Below, in pieces: positions 7,206 to 36,160 of a stretch of 36,160 bases of DNA. A program made the translations under genes and the position numbers. This DNA is from a virus, in IMG/VR virus record IMGVR_UViG_3300030012_000361, positions 1 to 36,160 of that record. One strand, 5' to 3'. Within the stretch, counting starts at the first letter, position 1. The number at the start of each line of letters is the position of its first letter. The notes under the pieces are model-generated. The model was not told the origin of the DNA. It saw only the letters and a list, made by a program, of their open reading frames with translations, and searched no databases.

Positions 7206-7499
7206 ATGGACGCCTTTGAATTAATTGAATCTGTAGGCCTTCCTATAGCTTCTGGTCTTGTAATGGGATATTTTATATTTCTAATTATGAGACAACTCAT
7301 GGGTGAACTTGTAGGCGAGATAAATACTATACAAGGTATCACCAAAATGCTCATAACCAGAGCGACAATAATGAACAATGAAATGATACGCATAGACACA
7401 ATAGTGTCTGCTGCTTTAGATTTATCTCCAGACCTAGAAAGGATAGCGAGAGCTGAGAACTTTGTAGAGGACGGAAAGATAGACGCTAGAAGGGACTAG
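7206..7499 (+). CDS. small membrane protein, UviB/BhlA-like topology (copy 1)
   Basis: 97 aa with one N-terminal helix (residues about 8-29, SVGLPIASGLVMGYFIFLIM) followed by a helical amphipathic tail. The plan 'MDxxELIxxxG..., one helix, ...MIRI/L...' is shared with the next gene, so the two look like diverged tandem paralogues. This topology is seen in UviB/BhlA-type holin-like proteins. No strong ribosome site is visible, and expression may depend on coupling to the gene ending at 7202. Confidence 0.65.
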   Translation: MDAFELIESVGLPIASGLVMGYFIFLIMRQLMGELVGEINTIQGITKMLITRATIMNNEMIRIDTIVSAALDLSPDLERIARAENFVEDGKIDARRD

Positions 7500-7500
7500 C

Positions 7501-7776
7501 GTGGACATAGTAGAACTTATAGATAAGTTTGGTTTCACTACTGTAATGGTAGTAGGTCTTGGATATTTTGTTTACTTTGTATGGCAAACAATAACCAATA
7601 AGATAGACCCTGCTGTTGATGATATGAAGAAGACTATCATTAGACTGACAGACGCTCTAAGACTTTTGGACCAAGATATGATACGCTTAAAAGAAAAGGT
7701 ATTGACTATAGAAAAACTAAAAGATGGCGAAGAAAAAAAAGCAGGTAGAAAAGGAACTGCAATTCGGAAGAAATAA
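7501..7776 (+). CDS. small membrane protein, UviB/BhlA-like topology (copy 2)
   Basis: 91 aa from a GTG start preceded by AAGGGAC and one base after the previous stop. One helix lies at residues about 10-29 (GFTTVMVVGLGYFVYFVWQT), followed by a helical segment (MKKTIIRLTDALRLLDQDMI) and a very basic tail (KKAGRKGTAIRKK). It resembles its upstream neighbour (MDxVELIDKFG versus MDAFELIESVG). The basic tail is encoded in DNA that also encodes the start of csgF in another frame (7724-7776). Confidence 0.65.
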   Translation: MDIVELIDKFGFTTVMVVGLGYFVYFVWQTITNKIDPAVDDMKKTIIRLTDALRLLDQDMIRLKEKVLTIEKLKDGEEKKAGRKGTAIRKK

Positions 7777-8224
7777 AATACTCATTGTAGTAGGGATTAT
7801 TGCTGTCTTATTTTTAACATGCTCACTAGCAGCAGACGAAATCACACACAAATTTAAGTCGCCTTCATTCAATGGTTCTCTAAATACCTCGGCCCATTAT
7901 CTTACGATTGAGCAGCAGGAGTATTCAAGAGCAGAGCAACTGCGCAAAGATTTACTGGCCTTAGCAGAACAAAAGAAAAGAGACGAAGAGAACAGTGTAA
8001 TAAGTCGCTTCCAGAGGAACTTAGAATCACGCATATTCGCTCAGATAAGCAGACAGATAGTAGACAATCTGTTTGGAGAAAATCCAAGCGAGAGTGGGAC
8101 ATTTACATTATTCGGCAACACCATAACTTACACAAGCGATGGTGAATTTATAACCTTAACGATTACAGACGAGTTCGGAAATGTCACGGAAATTACCATA
8201 CCTATTGGTGACCTTACTTTCTAG
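7724..8224 (+). CDS. csgF: CsgF-like curli secretion accessory protein
   Basis: 166 aa. After a basic N-terminus and hydrophobic core (residues 19-36) there is a likely signal-peptidase I site after SLA (residue 36). The mature start HKFKSPSFNG (42-51) matches the conserved N-terminal plug of CsgF (E. coli FRNPNFGGNP), which inserts into the CsgG channel. The remainder keeps the family order: a Gln/Glu-rich helix, RIFAQISRQIVDNLFG (like QSQILGGLL), then paired beta strands (FTLFGNTITYTSDG, FITLTITDEFGNVTEITI). The family role is to couple exported curlin to the outer-membrane CsgG pore. It overlaps csgG by 44 bases. The unusual part is the longer charged leader (18 residues before the hydrophobic core). 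Confidence 0.85.
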   Translation: MAKKKKQVEKELQFGRNKILIVVGIIAVLFLTCSLAADEITHKFKSPSFNGSLNTSAHYLTIEQQEYSRAEQLRKDLLALAEQKKRDEENSVISRFQRNLESRIFAQISRQIVDNLFGENPSESGTFTLFGNTITYTSDGEFITLTITDEFGNVTEITIPIGDLTF

Positions 8225-9008
8225 CTGCAGTCTTCTTGAGATAGATGAAGCTACAATGCCGTATCGGTTTGAACATGATACGAGAGAAGAGGTACAAATA
8301 TTAGATTTACAGAATGAAGCACTGGCCAGTGTCAAAGTGCCAGTCATCAAACCAGTAGTCGCTGTATATCCGACATCTTTTACAGACCAAACAGGCCAGA
8401 GAAAAAGTAATAGTAGCTTTGCTTTGTTCTCTACGGCCATAACACAAGCGCCTTATACACTGCTTATAAGGGCCTTAAAACATGCAGGTCATAGTAATGG
8501 GTCATTCTTTACAGTCATTGAAAGGATAAATCTGGATTCACTGACTCGTGAAAGACAGCTCATCCGAAGTACAAGAAATCAGTTTGCAGAAAATGGTGAA
8601 GGCACGGAGCTTCCACCACTGCTGTTCGCAGGTCTGCTTGTTGAAGGCGCTGTTGTAAGTTATGATACTAACTTAGTGACTGGTGGCGCAGGAGCTAGAT
8701 ACCTCGGTATTGGTTCTTCTAGTCAGTACAGACAAGACAATGTGACTGTAAGTCTCCGTCTTGTTTCTGTCGCTACTGGAGAGATACTGATTGAAGTAAG
8801 TAGCTCTAAAACTATCTGGTCTACTGGAATATCAGAAGATGTTTTCCGATTCATAGAAATGGGTACAGAACTCGTTGAGATAGAAGTGGGTGCTTCTACC
8901 AATGAGAGTGCTACCTTAGCTCTGTCTAAAGCGATAGAAGAGGGAGTACTGCAAATAATTAATATCGGTTATGACCGAGGGTTTTGGAAACATGAAGAAG
9001 CTAATTAG
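8181..9008 (+). CDS. csgG: CsgG-like outer-membrane curli secretion channel lipoprotein
   Basis: 275 aa, full family length. Residues 1-16 are a lipoprotein signal with lipobox LSSC (Cys16). The core matches CsgG closely: VAVYPTSFTDQTGQ (E. coli VSVYNIQDETGQ), ALFSTAITQAPYTLLIRALK, TVIERINLDSLTRERQLIR, LLVEGAVVSYDTN, then GGAGARYLGIGSSSQYRQ and LRLVSVATGEIL. In the family this forms a nonameric outer-membrane pore that exports unfolded curlin. The constriction loop differs: the central Phe (Phe56 of mature E. coli CsgG) is kept, but the Asn before it is Leu, and the Tyr position is not aromatic. It overlaps csgF and the curlin-like gene, so one operon is expected. Confidence 0.93.
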   Translation: MSRKLPYLLVTLLSSCSLLEIDEATMPYRFEHDTREEVQILDLQNEALASVKVPVIKPVVAVYPTSFTDQTGQRKSNSSFALFSTAITQAPYTLLIRALKHAGHSNGSFFTVIERINLDSLTRERQLIRSTRNQFAENGEGTELPPLLFAGLLVEGAVVSYDTNLVTGGAGARYLGIGSSSQYRQDNVTVSLRLVSVATGEILIEVSSSKTIWSTGISEDVFRFIEMGTELVEIEVGASTNESATLALSKAIEEGVLQIINIGYDRGFWKHEEAN

Positions 9009-9702
9009 TTTAAGTCTTATATTAAGCATGTCTGTTTTGGCTGACGATAACGAAATTTATCTTGACCAAAATGGAAACAGTAGCACAATCAAGATTGAGC
9101 AAATTGGTGGTTCTGGAAATATCATAGGTGGATTAAATTCCTCAGCAGGTAGCTTGACAGCGTTTGACCTTGATGGGTTAAACATGAATCTATCCTTGTT
9201 CCAAATAGGTAGTAGCAATACTTTCTTAGGCGACATACTTGGAGATAATATTACTTTCTTGTATGACGCTGACGGAGACAGTAATTCCATGACTATCCAA
9301 GTAGACCCTAGTAATACTTTTGGTGCTGACTCTGGCAATTACAATATAGATATTACTGGAAACTCTAATGCTGCAACTCTTGATGTAGGTACAACTGCTC
9401 TTGCAGGTACACTAGATTTAGATTGGATAATCCAAGGTTCTGGGAACACACTAGATTTTGATATTAACTATGATGGAGCAACCAATTTCATGGACCTTGA
9501 TGGTGATGATAACACTGTAAACTTTACTGGTTCTGGTGCTGCTAATGGTTTTTTCTATCTGGACCAGACAGGCGATGATCGCACCTTTAACATTCAGCAG
9601 ATAGACACTTTAAATAATGCCTATTTAAAGTTAATCTCAATAGGTGATAATGGTTCGGTTTGTATTATACAGTCTGACGGCTCTACCTCTACTGGGTGCT
9701 GA
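8992..9702 (+). CDS. secreted curlin-like repeat protein
   Basis: 236 aa from ATG 8992, chosen over an upstream ATG at 8971 because it begins an ideal signal peptide (MKKLISLSLILSMSVLA, cut before DDN). The mature protein has irregular curlin-type units with spaced Gln/Gly/Asn: IYLDQNGNSSTIKIEQIGG, LSLFQIGSSNTF, WIIQGSGNTLDF, FYLDQTGDDRTFNIQQ. The middle is more Asp/Asn-rich than CsgA. It ends with a Cys pair (SVCIIQSDGSTSTGC). With CsgF and CsgG directly upstream, it is the obvious export substrate and a candidate phage-coded amyloid or nucleator. It overlaps csgG by 17 bases and the FecR gene by 59. Confidence 0.8.
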   Translation: MKKLISLSLILSMSVLADDNEIYLDQNGNSSTIKIEQIGGSGNIIGGLNSSAGSLTAFDLDGLNMNLSLFQIGSSNTFLGDILGDNITFLYDADGDSNSMTIQVDPSNTFGADSGNYNIDITGNSNAATLDVGTTALAGTLDLDWIIQGSGNTLDFDINYDGATNFMDLDGDDNTVNFTGSGAANGFFYLDQTGDDRTFNIQQIDTLNNAYLKLISIGDNGSVCIIQSDGSTSTGC

Positions 9703-10738
9703 TTTAGATATAGGCGACATATCTGAGCTAAGAGGTTCAGCTCAGATAGTCAGAGATAAGGATTATATTGCAGAGCTAGACTTTGCAATACAATCCAATG
9801 ATAAAGCAATAACTCAAAATGGCCGTATGGCTATAGAGTTTTTAGATGAATCTATTGTCCGTCTGACAGAGGACAGTCATTTAGTTATAGATGAATATAT
9901 CTATGACCCAGACCCAAGCAAAGCAAAGATGTCTCTTAACTTTGCATTAGGGACTACAAGATTTCTGAGTGGGAATGTAGACAGAATGTCTAAGCAAAAT
10001 GTCACACTCAAAACTCCAAGCGCAAACATATTTATTAGAGGTAGTAGTTTCTCGGCTGTAGTAGACGAGTTCGGAAGATCACTTTTAATAAATCTACCTT
10101 ATGGTCCAAACGATTCTATGATTGGAGAAATAGAAGTTCAGACTGCTATGGGAAGTGTCATACTTTCTGAGCCGTTTGAAGCTACTTCTGTAAACACTTT
10201 TGAAAGCATACCTACTTCGCCAGTAATCTTAGACCTTACACTGGACATAATTGACAATATGCTCATAGTAAATCCACCAAGAGAGGAGCTAAGTTTAGAA
10301 GAAGAACAAACTACCCAGACTGCAGACTACTTAGATTTTAATGATTTAGATATTGATTATTTAGATGAAGATTTTTTAGACAATGAAGCAGACTTAGAAT
10401 TTACAGAACTAGATATTAATTATTTAGATGTAAACTTCTTAGAAGATTTATTAGATGTCCTTGACGCTTTGGATGTAGCCGAGGATGAAGACGCTCTTGC
10501 GCTAGAAGGCAATCTATCCATAGTCGGTACAACTTTTGGACAAGATACAGACACGCAAATAACAACATTCCTAACTGGTCAAGTGCTGACCTTGCAAAGA
10601 AATGTTGCAGGTAATGCAAGAGTAGATATAGATGGCGCAGGTTCATATACAGTAATCTTCATTCAAGATGGTGTCTCCAGAACTGTCACAATCAATGGTG
10701 GAAGCTCTACTCAAATAACCATAAGACAAGGTAGCTAA
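9644..10738 (+). CDS. FecR-domain periplasmic protein
   Basis: 364 aa. A signal peptide (residues about 3-19, MVRFVLYSLTALPLLGA) is followed by a FecR domain at about 22-180: 'G.A.I.RD..Y...L...I.S.D.A.T...G...I.F.DES.VRLT.DS.L.ID', then KTPSANIFIRGSSFSAVV. Residues about 225-280 are strongly acidic with a repeated YLD/FLD pattern (YLDFNDLDIDYLDEDFLD). The end is another small beta domain (LSIVGTTFGQ to the C-terminus). Stand-alone FecR proteins commonly sit next to CHASE2 cyclases in bacteria, exactly as here. That suggests a periplasmic ligand or partner for the cyclase sensor. The start could also be Met3. Confidence 0.82.
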   Translation: MIMVRFVLYSLTALPLLGADLDIGDISELRGSAQIVRDKDYIAELDFAIQSNDKAITQNGRMAIEFLDESIVRLTEDSHLVIDEYIYDPDPSKAKMSLNFALGTTRFLSGNVDRMSKQNVTLKTPSANIFIRGSSFSAVVDEFGRSLLINLPYGPNDSMIGEIEVQTAMGSVILSEPFEATSVNTFESIPTSPVILDLTLDIIDNMLIVNPPREELSLEEEQTTQTADYLDFNDLDIDYLDEDFLDNEADLEFTELDINYLDVNFLEDLLDVLDALDVAEDEDALALEGNLSIVGTTFGQDTDTQITTFLTGQVLTLQRNVAGNARVDIDGAGSYTVIFIQDGVSRTVTINGGSSTQITIRQGS

Positions 10739-10757: not shown

Positions 10758-12524
10758 ATGAAGCGAATACTATTTGTACTGCTTATAATATTGGCCATAC
10801 CATTAATATTTAACTGGACTCCACTACAAGTCATGAAGATGAGAGTCTTTGATTCTCTGATTGAGACGCCAAACGAGTCTGGTAATTTTATTATTTTAAA
10901 TATCTCTGAGCAAGACTTAGAAGACTTTGGTGGATGGCCATTACCAAGAGATATATTTGCGCAACTCCATTATGCTTTACTAGAGTATGGCGCTACTGGT
11001 GTGGCCTACGGAATCAGCTTTCCACAAAAGGATAGGATGGGTGGAGACCAAGTCTTTGCTCAAGCCTTAAATGAAACTGGTTCAGTCATAGCTATGTTTC
11101 CAGATAACAGTGGCCAGTATCCTAAGACAACTTCTACTATTATTAAAGGAGAAGATATTGGTGGTATGATGTTAGAAGGAGTGAAGCAAAACTATCTGGA
11201 ACTCCGAGAGTCCAGTCTGCAGGGTTTAGCTTTCGCTCCTACAGAAGCAGACCTTATAGTAAGACGAGTACCACTATTGGCTAGAAGTCCAGACGGATGG
11301 ATACCAAGTTTCGCCACGCAGATATACAAGCTCGTGACAGGTAGCAAAAACTATATTATTACAACAAACCAAAACGGAATCCAAGAGATAGTTATACAAG
11401 GACTTAATCCAGTCAAGACAGATAGCCTTGGAAGGAAATGGATTTCATGGGTAGACACTCCAGAGATAACATTGAAAGAATTAGATAAGGTAAAAGATCG
11501 CTTTGTCATTGTCGGAGTGGACGCTGCAGGAATACAAATACAGATACCAACGCCAGTAGGATTAAAAGAGCCACATAAGGTTCAAGCAGCTCTAGCAGAA
11601 TCAATCTTAATTGAAGACTCTCCATACATACCAGACTATTCTTTTGGCCTAGAAATACTTATTTTCTTATTATCTGGCGCTCTTATTTGCGTTCTAACGA
11701 GTTCTTTTGGTGTGGTTGGTACGCTAACATCCCTTAGTTTTACCTTCGCTCTAACGGCTTCTGGTGGCTTCTGGCTAATCAGAAGTGGTCTACTTATAGA
11801 TGTTAGTTATACTCTAATATCACAATTTGTTATAGCTAGTACTGGCTTCTTTTTGAAGTTCCGTCAGCAATACAAATTACGCCAACAAATAAAGAAACAG
11901 TTTGAGAAATACTTAGATAAAAGACAGGTGGCAAGGCTACAGAAAAATCCCTCTCTGCTAAAACTTGGTGGTGAAAAACAGTATGCGTCCTTCCTCTTCA
12001 CTGACCTTCGTGGCTTTACTTCTCTATCAGAAAGAGTAGGCCCAGAAAAGACTTGTTATATTATGAACAAAGCACTGACAGCTCAAGTATCTGCAGTCCA
12101 AGAGCAAGACGGATTAGTAGACAAGTTTATTGGAGACGCTATGTTCGCACAATTCGGTCCACCTCTGGGCCTAGAGAATCATGAAGAAGCTGCTCTTAAT
12201 GCTGCTATGCAGATACAAAAGAATATCAAAGCACTGAATCAAGAGCTTGAAGCAGAAGGTATAGACCCAGTACAGATCGGTATAGGTATAGAAACAGGTT
12301 ATGCTGTAGTAGGCAATATGGGTTCTGAAAGTAGGTTTGAGTATTCTGCTATTGGCGACCCAGTAAACTGCGCAGCTAGATATGAGTCAGCTACCAAAGG
12401 CCTTGGTGTTGATTTAGTTATTGGACAAACAACACAAGACGGCATATCATTTAATCTATTACCACTTGGAAAGATAGAAGCCAAGGGCAAGAAAGATAAA
12501 TTACAGGTGTATACATGGGAATGA
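10758..12524 (+). CDS. CHASE2-sensor class III adenylate cyclase
   Basis: 588 aa. Residues about 4-21 are a first membrane helix. About 25-290 is a periplasmic CHASE2 domain (FIILNISEQDLEDFGGWPLP, then GATGVAYGISF). Three helices at about 295-380 lead into a short coiled linker and a class III cyclase domain (about 405-588). All catalytic positions are intact: Asp416 (FTDLRGFTS) and Asp460 for metal, Lys456 and Asp534 for adenine selection (DKFIGDAM, IGDPVN), Asn537 and Arg541 for transition-state binding (VNCAAR). ATP to cAMP is therefore predicted. A membrane signalling enzyme of this type is very unusual in a phage. It follows the FecR gene by 19 bases and overlaps the spanin gene. Confidence 0.92.
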   Translation: MKRILFVLLIILAIPLIFNWTPLQVMKMRVFDSLIETPNESGNFIILNISEQDLEDFGGWPLPRDIFAQLHYALLEYGATGVAYGISFPQKDRMGGDQVFAQALNETGSVIAMFPDNSGQYPKTTSTIIKGEDIGGMMLEGVKQNYLELRESSLQGLAFAPTEADLIVRRVPLLARSPDGWIPSFATQIYKLVTGSKNYIITTNQNGIQEIVIQGLNPVKTDSLGRKWISWVDTPEITLKELDKVKDRFVIVGVDAAGIQIQIPTPVGLKEPHKVQAALAESILIEDSPYIPDYSFGLEILIFLLSGALICVLTSSFGVVGTLTSLSFTFALTASGGFWLIRSGLLIDVSYTLISQFVIASTGFFLKFRQQYKLRQQIKKQFEKYLDKRQVARLQKNPSLLKLGGEKQYASFLFTDLRGFTSLSERVGPEKTCYIMNKALTAQVSAVQEQDGLVDKFIGDAMFAQFGPPLGLENHEEAALNAAMQIQKNIKALNQELEAEGIDPVQIGIGIETGYAVVGNMGSESRFEYSAIGDPVNCAARYESATKGLGVDLVIGQTTQDGISFNLLPLGKIEAKGKKDKLQVYTWE

Positions 12525-12922
12525 AAATCGCAGGTGTGTTGGGTTTGCTTCTCGTAATATCCGTAGCAGGTTCAGCATGGTACATTGACAGACTACAAGA
12601 TGAGATTTCTGTATTAAAAGGTAATGCCATAGCATTAGAAAATTCTATCGCACAACAAAACGAACAAATCAAAGAACACAAAGCCAAGGCCGAAGCGCTG
12701 CAAAATCAAAACAATAAACTTGCTTCTCAGAATCAAGAGTCTATGAGGGAAGTAAATCAGCTTAGAAATACTTTTGCTTCTCATGATTTAGACAATCTGG
12801 CATTAGCTAAACCTGCTCTCATAGAATCAAAGGTAAATAAAGCAGTCAAAAGATTAATGCAAGAGTTTAGAGATATAACAGACCCAGACCAATTCAATGA
12901 AGAAGATAATACTGACGGCTAG
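12515..12922 (+). CDS. i-spanin-like inner-membrane protein (Rz-like)
   Basis: 135 aa. One N-terminal helix (residues about 4-22, KIAGVLGLLLVISVAGSAWY) is followed by a long coiled coil (about 25-85, repeated Gln/Asn/Lys heptads). That is the plan of i-spanins, which span the periplasm and fuse the membranes with an o-spanin at the end of lysis. AGGTG lies six bases before ATG 12515, although ATG 12521 would give an ATGA overlap with the cyclase stop. Its 3' end overlaps the o-spanin gene by 26 bases in another frame, the classic Rz/Rz1 arrangement. Confidence 0.8.
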   Translation: MGMKIAGVLGLLLVISVAGSAWYIDRLQDEISVLKGNAIALENSIAQQNEQIKEHKAKAEALQNQNNKLASQNQESMREVNQLRNTFASHDLDNLALAKPALIESKVNKAVKRLMQEFRDITDPDQFNEEDNTDG

Positions 12923-13280
12923 TTTCGCAGCTCTAATGACTAGCTGTTCTATGATACCTAGTCAAACAAAGCCAGTGGAAGTAGTGACTATTGCTGAGCG
13001 TATGCCAATGTATCATCCCCCTCTCCCCCTTGAGGTACAACTGGTAGATGTTGATTGGACAGTTCTGACTCCAGAACTTATGGAAGAATATCTACAAAGG
13101 ATAGAAGCAGGTGAAGCACCACGCTCAGCATACTATGCGCTGACTACAAAAGAATATGAGAATCTAAGTATGAACATGGCCGAACTTAAAAGATATTTGA
13201 AAGACACGCTGCATATCATTGAATTTTATAGAGAATATGAAGATGACGAAGACGAAGAAAACAAGCAGACAAAAGATTAA
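12897..13280 (+). CDS. o-spanin-like outer-membrane lipoprotein (Rz1-like)
   Basis: 127 aa. A short signal sequence ends in a near-consensus lipobox (LMTSC, Cys17). A Pro-rich stretch follows (PMYHPPLPLEV), as in many o-spanins, then a helical region (VLTPELMEEYLQRIEAG; NMAELKRYLKDTLHIIEFY) and a highly acidic tail (EYEDDEDEEN). The overlap with the upstream coiled-coil gene and the lipobox make a spanin partner the best reading. It is longer than lambda Rz1 but matches the size of the related lipoprotein in other marine phages. Confidence 0.8.
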   Translation: MKKIILTASFAALMTSCSMIPSQTKPVEVVTIAERMPMYHPPLPLEVQLVDVDWTVLTPELMEEYLQRIEAGEAPRSAYYALTTKEYENLSMNMAELKRYLKDTLHIIEFYREYEDDEDEENKQTKD

Positions 13281-13883: not shown

Positions 13884-14336
13884 ATGAACAACAACAAAAT
13901 ATCAGCAGAAGGCATTGGACTTATAAAGAAGTTTGAGGGCCTAGAGCTAGAAGCGTATCAATGTAGCGCAGGTGTATGGACCATAGGCTATGGCCATACC
14001 AAAGGAGTACAAGAAGGCGATGTTATTAGTGAAGACCATGCCAATCATTTATTAGAGGTAGAGCTAGAAGAGTATGAAGGCTATGTAAACCAATATGTCA
14101 AAGTGCCACTCAAGCAGTGCCACCATGATTCTTTGACTGCTTTCGTTTACAATCTTGGGCCAAATAATTTCATGAGTTCTACACTCCTTCGTGTCTTAAA
14201 CGAAGGTCAATATGACGAAGTTCCTGCGCAGATTAAAAGATGGAACAAAGCAGGTGGCCAAGTCCTTGAAGGATTGGTTAGACGAAGAGAAGCAGAAGCA
14301 TTATTATTTGAGGGTAAAGACTGGACACATATCTAA
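13884..14336 (+). CDS. GH24 endolysin (T4/P21-type muramidase)
   Basis: 150 aa from ATG 13884, one base after the nuclease stop. The frame extends further upstream, but that part only shadows the nuclease gene. The glycoside hydrolase 24 triad shows the exact E-8-[DC]-5-T spacing: Glu18 (FEGLE), Cys27, Thr33 (WTIGYGHT). The Cys instead of Asp is as in P21/P1-type endolysins. Other family blocks are DSLTAFVYNLGPNNF and LVRRREAEALLF near the end. There is no N-terminal signal-anchor, so a holin is needed for release. It cuts the MurNAc-GlcNAc bond of peptidoglycan. Confidence 0.93.
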   Translation: MNNNKISAEGIGLIKKFEGLELEAYQCSAGVWTIGYGHTKGVQEGDVISEDHANHLLEVELEEYEGYVNQYVKVPLKQCHHDSLTAFVYNLGPNNFMSSTLLRVLNEGQYDEVPAQIKRWNKAGGQVLEGLVRRREAEALLFEGKDWTHI

Positions 14337-32896: not shown

Positions 32897-35800
32897 TGAG
32901 CGATCTTGTCAAAAGCATAACCATAACTGGCCCAAATGATATATCTGTTATTACTGTAGCAACGCAGGGTGCTACTGGTGGAGCAGGTCAGAAGGGTTAG
33001 AAAGGAGCTGTCGGAGCTGCAAGTTCTGTTGCAGGACCAACAGGTTCAACAGGAGATAAAGGCCAAAAAGGTGAGATAGGTGTGACAGGGCCAAGTGGTC
33101 CTACTGGTTCAACAGGTTCTACAGGTAGTACAGGTCCGACAGGTTCACAAGGAGACAAGGGTGAAAAAGGACAGAAAGGAACAACAGGAAATACAGGAAA
33201 CACTGGACCGACTGGACCAACTGGTGCTACTGGCGATAAGGGTCAAAAGGGAACTACTGGAGATACTGGAGCGACAGGAGATAAAGGTCAGAAAGGTCAG
33301 ACAGGAGCTACAGGAAACACTGGAGCAGAAGGAAGCAAAGGACAAAAAGGAGAAGTAGGTGTCACTGGTAATACAGGTGACAAGGGCCAAAAGGGTGAAG
33401 TCGGTTCTACAGGTAGTACAGGAAGCCAAGGAAGCAAAGGACAGAAGGGAGAGAAAGGTCAGAAAGGTCTTAAAGGTGTAGAAGGAAACTTTGGTGGCCA
33501 GACAGTTAATTATAATTTCTCTACTAATACAACAGACAGCGACCCAACAGCAGGTCTTCTCAAATTCAATAACGCAAATTTATCAAGCGCCAGTCAATTA
33601 TTTATAGATGATGAAGACCAAAGCTCAACAGACATACAGGCATACCTAAGAACTATAGATGACTCAACATCTACCATCAAAGGCCATGTCAGAATATCAA
33701 ACAAAACAGACGCCACGGACTTTGCGCTGTTCCAAATTGGTGGGTCAATAACAGAAGCAACAGGATATTTCAAAGTTCCAGTATCACATTTATCTGGAGC
33801 AACATCTTTCTCCAATGGCGAAGAACTTATTGTGACCTTTGCTAGAACTGGTGATATTGGAGACACTGGAGCTAAGGGTCAAAAAGGTACTACAGGAGAT
33901 ACAGGAGCAGCAGGGTCAGACGGAAGTAAAGGCCAGAAGGGTCAAACAGGGAATACTGGTTCAACAGGTCCTACAGGCTCTACAGGCCCTAGTGGTCCAA
34001 CTGGTTCTACTGGACCTACTGGACCTGCAGGTAATGATGGGTCAGACGGAAGTAAGGGACAGAAGGGAGAAACTGGCCAATCTATAACTGGACAGAAAGG
34101 TGAGAAAGGACAGACTGGTGCAACAGGAAGTCAAGGACCTGCAGGAAACGATGGTAGTAATGGTAGCGATGGCTCAAAGGGACAGAAAGGTGAAGCAGGA
34201 CAAGATGGTTCTACAGGGCCTACAGGGCCACAAGGAGCGCAAGGAAGTGGTGGTACTGCAGGAGATAAGGGCCAGAAAGGAGAAGCAGGTACAAACGGAA
34301 GTAATGGTTCTGACGGCACTGACGGAGACAAAGGACAGAAAGGTGAGATAGGAAACACTGGACCTAGTGGACCGACAGGAGCAGGTGGGCCTACAGGACC
34401 TCAAGGTAATGTTGGACAGAAAGGACAGAAAGGTGAAGACGGAGCGCAAGGCAACGCAGGGCCAACAGGAAGTAGTGGTGATAAAGGACAGAAAGGAGAA
34501 ACAGGAAGCACTGGTTCTCAAGGCTCAACTGGACCAAGTGGGCCTAGTGGTTCAGACGGAGACAAAGGACAAAAAGGTACAACTGGGTCTACAGGGCCAC
34601 AAGGTAGTACTGGACCTACTGGACCAGACGGACCTACAGGTGCTAGTGGAGATAAAGGACAGAAGGGACAGACTGGAAGTACAGGTAGTACAGGTCCAAC
34701 AGGACCACAAGGAAGTACAGGACCGAGTGGAGATAAAGGGCAAAAAGGAACAACAGGCTCTACAGGCTCACAAGGACCACAAGGAGATACAGGTCCAACA
34801 GGTCCTAGTGGACCAACAGGAGATAAAGGACAGAAAGGTGTAGCAGGTTCTACTGGACCTACTGGTGGAACAGGACCACAAGGTTCTACTGGCGACAAAG
34901 GTCAGAAAGGACAAACAGGTGCTACAGGTAATACAGGCTCTACTGGTCCTGCAGGTAGCGATGGAAATGATGGTAATGATGGAAGCAAAGGTCAGAAAGG
35001 AGAAGTAGGAAGTACTGGCCCTGCAGGTCCTACTGGTTCTACTGGTCCAACAGGTAGTGGTGGTGCTACTGGAGACAAGGGACAAAAAGGTCAAACTGGA
35101 AATACTGGTCCTGCAGGTAGTAATGGAAACGATGGAAACGATGGTAGTAAAGGTCAAAAAGGCGAAGTAGGAGCTACTGGTTCTAAGGGTCAGAAAGGAG
35201 AGATCGGTGCGACAGGTAATGATGGACCGACTGGACCGACTGGCTCAGCAGGAAGTAAAGGTCAAAAGGGTACAACAGGTAATACTGGTCCACAAGGTAG
35301 TGGTGGAGACAAAGGTCAAAAGGGTGAAGTAGGTAGTACTGGTCCGACTGGTAGTACAGGTTCAGCAGGAGACAAAGGTCAGAAAGGCCAGACAGGAAAT
35401 ACTGGACCAACTGGTAGTACTGGCCCTGCAGGTAGTAATGGAAGCGATGGGTCTAAAGGACAAAAGGGTCAAACAGGTAATACAGGTAATACTGGACCAA
35501 CAGGAAATACTGGTCCAACTGGAGCAGCAGGAGACAAGGGACAGAAGGGTACTACAGGCTCAACTGGTGGTACTGGACCTACTGGGCCGACTGGTCCAAG
35601 TGGTTCGGATGGTAATGATGGAAGTAAAGGTGAGAAGGGCCAGAAGGGTGTCACAGGTAATACTGGACCTACAGGTCCTACAGGAAGTACTGGAACTGGT
35701 ATTACTATGGAAGGGCAAGTCGCCACTACAAGTGATTTACCTTCTTCTGGCAATACAAAAGGAGACGCCTATATAGTACAGCAAGACGATAGTCTGCATA

Positions 35801-36160
35801 TATTTGATGGTTCTAGTTTTGTAAGTGGTGGTTCTATACAAGGACCACAAGGTTCAAAAGGCCAGAAGGGAGAAACAGGAAGCGCAGGAAGCAACGGAAG
35901 TAAGGGACAGAAGGGTCAGACAGGAGCTACTGGACCACAAGGCTCTACAGGCCCTACAGGAAGTACAGGTTCTCAAGGCGATAAAGGACAAAAAGGTCAG
36001 ACTGGAAACACTGGCTCAACAGGTCCAACAGGTCCAACTGGCCCAAATGGTAATGACGGAAGCGATGGCTCTAAAGGTCAGAAGGGACAGACAGGTGGTA
36101 CTGGCCCAACAGGAAGTACTGGACCAACAGGAAGTCAAGGTGATAAGGGACAAAAGGGCC
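32896..36160 (+). CDS. giant collagen-like tail fibre, in-frame TAG at codon 35, 3'-partial
   Basis: Starts [20 protein letters not shown] and runs to the window end, over 1085 codons, with one interruption: TAG at 32998-33000 inside the first collagen repeats (GGAGQKG*KGAVG). After that the frame stays open. The repeats are Gly-X-Y ([20 protein letters not shown]), hundreds of triplets. Two globular inserts are present: 33484-33846 ([20 protein letters not shown], ending FARTGDIGD), a fibre domain also seen in cyanophages, and about 35700-35845 ([20 protein letters not shown], then [11 protein letters not shown]). It is probably a trimeric side fibre or head fibre. Confidence 0.75.
32998..33000 (+). 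other. in-frame amber codon in fibre gene
   Basis: TAG follows GGTCAGAAGGGT and precedes AAAGGAGCT, at a repeat position normally CAG/CAA (Gln), GAG/GAA (Glu) or AAG/AAA (Lys). One base change from CAG, GAG or AAG would restore the repeat. TAG is a normal stop for at least eight genes here. Confidence 0.9.

Follow-up and report, generated by a model that had tools for sequence, protein, structure and literature searches.

Phage curli genes have a debated role in marine virology; proposals range from the capture of sibling cells and the exclusion of superinfecting phages to nutrient uptake and the control of lysis. The genes csgF and csgG are known in pelagimyophages (PMC7029224). A curli-FecR-adenylate cyclase cluster of alphaproteobacterial origin has been reported in SAR11 podo- and myophages; a histidine kinase precedes it in podophages, and spanins and holins are not mentioned in that report (PMC9599517). 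For csgGF of phage Melnitz, a role in lysis was proposed from synteny, and clumping of infected cells was not seen by the authors (PMC9004378).

Comparable receptors are found in bacteria. The CHASE2 cyclases of S. meliloti signal via an outer-membrane barrel (PMC13001267), and CyaD1 from which CHASE2 is missing produces cAMP constitutively (PMC5498481). The Burkholderia BiofilmReg operon, which is disrupted in a biofilm-negative mutant, also pairs a periplasmic FecR-domain protein, of the FecR-LysM type, with a CHASE2 receptor. However, its receptor is a histidine kinase with a two-component output rather than a cyclase, and it has no curli genes (PMC5192318).

The locus described here shares with the pelagiphage cluster the order small transmembrane (TM) genes-csgF-csgG-curlin-FecR-(curlin)-cyclase and the CHASE2-cyclase architecture (PMC9599517; PMC7029224; HTVC008M; Melnitz PMC9004378). 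Unlike that cluster, it belongs to a siphovirus with a lambda-J-type tail, has one curlin gene, and is followed immediately by spanins and an endolysin. The two cyclases are also distant, that of HTVC008M being only ~31% identical to the one studied here.

Results

The virus and the cyclase gene

The window, meaning the whole stretch of DNA that was analysed, is the 36,160-nt IMG/VR virus record IMGVR_UViG_3300030012_000361. It comes from a genuine marine siphovirus. Tail genes and a J-like tail fibre lie at 0.6-6.4 kb, terminase, portal, head protease and HK97-type capsid genes at 24.7-31.6 kb, and spanins and an endolysin are also present; the late region is lambda-like, and a replication block including Erf occupies the minus strand. 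With these genes on the contig, the cyclase is phage-encoded, as had been claimed. Its open reading frame was also predicted correctly, as the coordinates, frame and length are exact and all 588 codons are uninterrupted (Table 1).

Among the relatives scanned, the lambda-J model matched the window and one relative only. A T7-type portal (PF12236), sought in order to class relatives as podoviruses, gave no match anywhere, controls included. An Rfam scan of the window returned nothing, so that it shows no counterpart of the riboswitch described beside the Melnitz curli genes. The structural region also contains a collagen-like Gly-X-Y repeat frame of more than 1,000 aa with GDKGQKG units (33082-36159, plus strand), which is open at the contig end.

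Organization of the curli module

The module runs csgF-csgG-curlin-FecR-cyclase, with the cyclase as its last gene, and, as far as their contigs extend, the 80 nearest viral loci are arranged in the same way. The curlin gene is syntenic with the annotated curlin genes of HTVC008M and Melnitz. In the window, 19 nt separate the end of the FecR gene from the cyclase ATG; in relatives the two genes touch (median gap -1 nt, 65 loci). A scan seeded with csgG, and hence without selection for the cyclase, found FecR and cyclase genes at all 49 phage csgG loci that have at least 4.5 kb downstream.

The FecR protein has no sequence relative in the PDB, and its predicted model is poor (pLDDT 48.5), with low confidence except for the ~70 C-terminal residues. 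At residues ~224-270 it carries a highly conserved acidic-aromatic stretch, LDFNDLDIDYLDEDFL...LDINYLDVNFLEDLLDVLDAL.

Table 1. Features of the cyclase locus, with positions in the window
Feature	Position	Strand	Evidence or remark
Small one-TM/coiled-coil protein (phrog_18771)	7206..7499	+	travels with module
Second small one-TM/coiled-coil protein (phrog_18771)	7501..7776	+	
CsgF	7724..8224	+	Pfam CsgF 73.2 bits, above cut-off
CsgG, outer-membrane curli pore lipoprotein	8181..9008	+	Pfam CsgG 164.6 bits, above cut-off
Curlin-repeat (CsgA/B-like) protein, signal peptide	8992..9702	+	weak Pfam Curlin_rpt (E=0.01)
FecR-domain protein, N-terminal hydrophobic signal	9650..10738	+	Pfam FecR 31.4 bits
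Predicted CHASE2-class III (IIIb-type) adenylate cyclase, 588 aa	10758..12524	+	ATG start, no internal stop
Residues 371-408, linker and cyclase transducer element, FEKYL replacing FGRY	11868..11981	+	78% mean identity
Asp416, metal-binding residue 1	12003..12005	+	90/90 relatives; every aligned row of larger sets
Lys456, purine-recognition lysine (ATP-type)	12123..12125	+	90/90 relatives; Glu in guanylyl cyclase Cya2 2w01
Asp460, metal-binding residue 2	12135..12137	+	90/90 relatives
Ser530, second purine-recognition position	12345..12347	+	T67 S21 D2 of 90 relatives; alignment to 1wc1, 3r5g
Asn537 and Arg541, ribose/transition-state residues	12366..12380	+	Asn 89/90, Arg 90/90 relatives
i-spanin (Rz-like)	12515..12922	+	PHROG Rz-like spanin; start overlaps cyclase stop by 10 nt
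o-spanin (Rz1-like lipoprotein)	12897..13280	+	
Endolysin	13884..14336	+	likely start; mechanical ORF from 13758

Domains and catalytic residues

Pfam places a CHASE2 domain at residues 11-308 (97.9 bits; cut-off 26.3) and a Guanylate_cyc domain at residues 409-585 (58.3 bits; cut-off 21.9). The AlphaFold2 model (mean pLDDT 89.7) has an N-terminal helix (2-17), an alpha/beta sensor domain, three helices spanning 295-382 (295-316, 319-342 and 350-382) and the cyclase domain, with CHASE2 between the N-terminal TM helix and the three-helix membrane segment. The sensor and membrane helices are thus intact, in agreement with the original prediction. The modelled cyclase domain matches the solved structures of CyaC, Cya2 and P. 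aeruginosa CyaB (TM-score by target ~0.8-0.85).

Adenine is recognized by Lys and Asp in class IIIa cyclases and by Lys and Thr or Ser in class IIIb. The original prediction listed six catalytic residues and read a Lys/Asp pair as the selector of ATP. Asp416, Lys456, Asp460, Asn537 and Arg541 are indeed present, but Asp534 is not the ATP selector. When aligned with CyaC (1wc1) and CyaB (3r5g), Asp534 lies opposite Pro and Arg, respectively, and Lys456 is paired for adenine recognition with Ser530, seven residues before Asn537, where both solved enzymes have Thr. Ser or Thr is found here in nearly all relatives, including 28/28 alphaproteobacterial ones. By alignment, then, K456 with S530 is the class IIIb pattern. 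CyaC (Spirulina) has the same catalytic fold and residues, but is soluble and has Thr at the Ser530 position. Cya2 (Synechocystis) has them too and is CHASE2-regulated, but it is a guanylyl cyclase, with Glu where the phage protein has Lys456; judged by this comparison, Lys456 favours ATP as the substrate.

No stretch of the protein is more conserved than the linker and transducer element (78%, compared with 55% in the cyclase domain), and this speaks for retained signal coupling. The gene product is very probably an active membrane adenylate cyclase, to judge from these sequence features.

Conservation and selection

Beyond the 90 relatives of Table 1, we aligned three more sets, of 70, 80 and 83 cyclases, which overlap partly and include a few truncated rows; every aligned row in them keeps the catalytic columns intact. 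Frequent non-functional copies, which had been raised as a point against an active enzyme, are not what we find: the catalytic residues are near-invariant across ~300 phage cyclases, and dN/dS for close pairs is 0.05-0.11. Compared with its nearest relative, L141 (94% identity), which was found via csgG, the window cyclase gives a dN/dS of 0.095 at a dS of 0.38. Thus, it is under strong purifying selection. The corresponding dN/dS values of the other module genes are.06 (csgF),.09 (csgG),.09 (curlin) and.08 (FecR).

The branch of the window cyclase is long, and the protein deviates at 18/172 near-invariant columns, more than any relative does, including D528E beside the active site. Decay as the cause of these departures is rejected on the dN/dS against L141. 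The sole split copy that we met is L085:4843-6666, from a metagenome bin, in which the cyclase is divided into two frames by a frameshift or an assembly error.

Distribution and phylogeny

A sensor-cyclase in a phage had been considered exceptional. Instead, viral contigs matching three query lineages number at least 597, 584 and 302, the cyclase is present in two cultured phage groups (HTVC008M and Melnitz), it has its own PHROGs family (phrog_35576), and its cluster has been published. The HTVC008M record names it as 'adenylate/guanylyl cyclase'.

In a quick maximum-likelihood tree, in which some forks are open, a fully supported branch splits 28 alphaproteobacterial cyclases from all phage-type sequences, and the window cyclase falls in a 25-row virus-only clade. 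The comparison with bacterial CHASE2 cyclases therefore puts it deep among phage sequences. Going by this tree, the cyclase is an old phage gene, and we reject a recent pick-up from a host on account of the deep position. The published pelagiphage tree likewise groups the phage cyclases together (PMC9599517). The alphaproteobacterial enzymes, such as CyaD1, CyaD2 and CyaK of S. meliloti, share CHASE2, three TM helices, a class III cyclase domain with Lys and Ser/Thr, and a frequent FecR neighbour, whereas the phage cyclases are shorter and lie within an export module.

A sister module with TolC and HlyD

The cyclase group with at least 302 viral contigs is a sister group, in which a FecR-cadherin protein and TolC/HlyD take the place of curli (loci L301-L380, e.g., L347:1578-12470, L345 and L342). 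This module comprises a protein of 1,200-1,700 aa that has a FecR domain at its N terminus as well as cadherin repeats, together with TolC, a 250-aa membrane protein, HlyD and the cyclase. Among ten sister loci with 5 kb of upstream sequence, nine have the FecR gene, eight have TolC and HlyD, and two have csg genes. The 250-aa protein between TolC and HlyD has no Pfam match, and we have set aside as a guess the idea that it is half of an ABC transporter. We first met this module in a bacterial bin, and our literature search found no published description of a phage FecR-cadherin/TolC/HlyD module. Phage-type modules are also carried by the genome-bin contigs L084 (Neomarinimicrobiota bin) and L085-L089, several of which look as if they came from phages and were placed in bacterial bins.

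The two small TM genes upstream of csgF in the window, whose products belong to one PHROG, are usually kept in the sister module and so accompany both export systems. Their products (91-97 aa) have no Pfam match at E<=0.1 and no kinase domain, and the window shows no histidine kinase ahead of the module such as was reported for the podophage clusters. They are probably the published 'HK' of the pelagiphage cluster, and may be holin-like proteins or scaffolds instead of histidine kinases.

In Alphaproteobacteria, the nearest CHASE2 cyclases have a FecR gene as neighbour in 11/20 fetched regions, against ~0.2 expected from 64 FecR matches in ~86 Mb. This is ~60-fold above background. The figure applies to this subfamily, because the bacterial loci were selected as those most similar to the phage cyclase. 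A Pfam scan of four of the bacterial FecR proteins found cadherin-like, Big, Calx-beta, VWA or RTX domains, and several are adhesin-like. FecR and the cyclase are kept together both in the sister module and in Alphaproteobacteria. Thus, this pair stays constant, and what varies is the surface structure that is exported.

Discussion

We propose, at what we judge to be an even chance, that the receptor cyclase reads a FecR-domain protein tied to the export of the phage's own surface fibres, and that its cAMP is received by host proteins. The enzyme would be a homodimeric class IIIb receptor adenylate cyclase, in which the periplasmic CHASE2 domain switches the cytoplasmic cyclase through the conserved transducer helix. 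It would provide the signal output of the curli (type VIII) secretion module that the phage encodes. The upstream FecR-domain protein may be the periplasmic partner, itself within or next to the fibre system, reporting the state of fibre export through the CsgG/CsgF pore with its curlin subunit. Gene linkage suggests FecR as the CHASE2 partner, and the Burkholderia operon and the S. meliloti cyclases offer precedents for a CHASE2 domain that might read a FecR domain. We infer both the contact and the direction of the response; no published report of a cyclase-FecR contact was found. The original prediction had a sensor of periplasmic cues in general. Its CHASE2 domain stands, but with csgF, csgG, curlin and FecR genes directly upstream the likely input shifts to the fibre-export module itself. 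A cNMP-binding protein (PF00027) was found in 0/31 phage records, so that cAMP should act on host proteins. It would target host cAMP-binding proteins and adjust the infected cell while fibres are displayed, and the benefit may be aggregation, capture or exclusion. Weighing against the proposal are the lack of clumping in Melnitz-infected cells (PMC9004378) and the unusual column departures of the window copy, although the latter are set against ordinary purifying selection relative to L141.

The same count, together with the age of the phage-only clade, would also suit a generic host takeover, in which cAMP retunes metabolism via a host CRP-type regulator and the curli genes are adjacent because both are late accessory cargo. 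We consider this unlikely. This is because the cyclase is never apart from FecR and an export system at the 49 csgG loci, and the link to FecR survives the replacement of curli by TolC/HlyD and exists in bacteria as well.

Somewhat less likely still is that the CsgG/CsgF pore and the cyclase help to set the time of lysis, along the lines proposed for Melnitz csgGF (PMC9004378). The curli module does sit within the lysis region. The cyclase stop overlaps the i-spanin start, the genes 3' of it encode the Rz and Rz1 spanins, a nuclease and the endolysin, and spanin or lysin genes are near in 44/49 csgG loci. However, the window already has a complete spanin and endolysin set, and the lysis neighbours are lineage-specific. 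In the myophage and TolC/HlyD sets, spanin and lysin models derived from the window match nothing downstream of the cyclase, though unrelated lysins could escape such models. The lysis hypothesis is weakened because these neighbours accompany only the relatives of the window; in that lineage it may still hold.

That the product is cGMP, or cAMP and cGMP together, rather than cAMP only, we regard as improbable. The second specificity residue is Ser, which is known from guanylyl cyclases (PMC4215837), the CHASE2 cyclase with a solved structure, Cya2, belongs to the guanylyl cyclases, and the S. meliloti CHASE2 enzymes are termed AC/GCs. Nevertheless, Lys456 is invariant, and guanylyl cyclases have Glu at this position. 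A catalytically dead scaffold or receptor remnant, to which the unusual column departures of the window copy might point, is very improbable given that the metal, Lys, Asn and Arg residues are all kept and the dN/dS against the closest relative is low.

We return to the reading of a cyclase that monitors fibre export. In its wider form, which we put forward tentatively, phages may carry a two-part core of a FecR periplasmic protein and a CHASE2 cyclase that serves different fibre or adhesin exporters and signals their export state to the host as cAMP. To the published picture our analysis adds the module within the lysis region of a lambda-tailed siphovirus, the sister TolC/HlyD module, and the FecR neighbours in Alphaproteobacteria. 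A constant FecR-cyclase core with a changing exporter turns the question about phage curli into whether FecR controls the cyclase. If it does, FecR would be a ligand candidate for CHASE2, a domain whose signals are mostly unknown, and viruses would carry a second-messenger circuit that monitors export. In that case, cells infected by the viruses of abundant ocean bacteria would routinely receive a cAMP signalling input from them.
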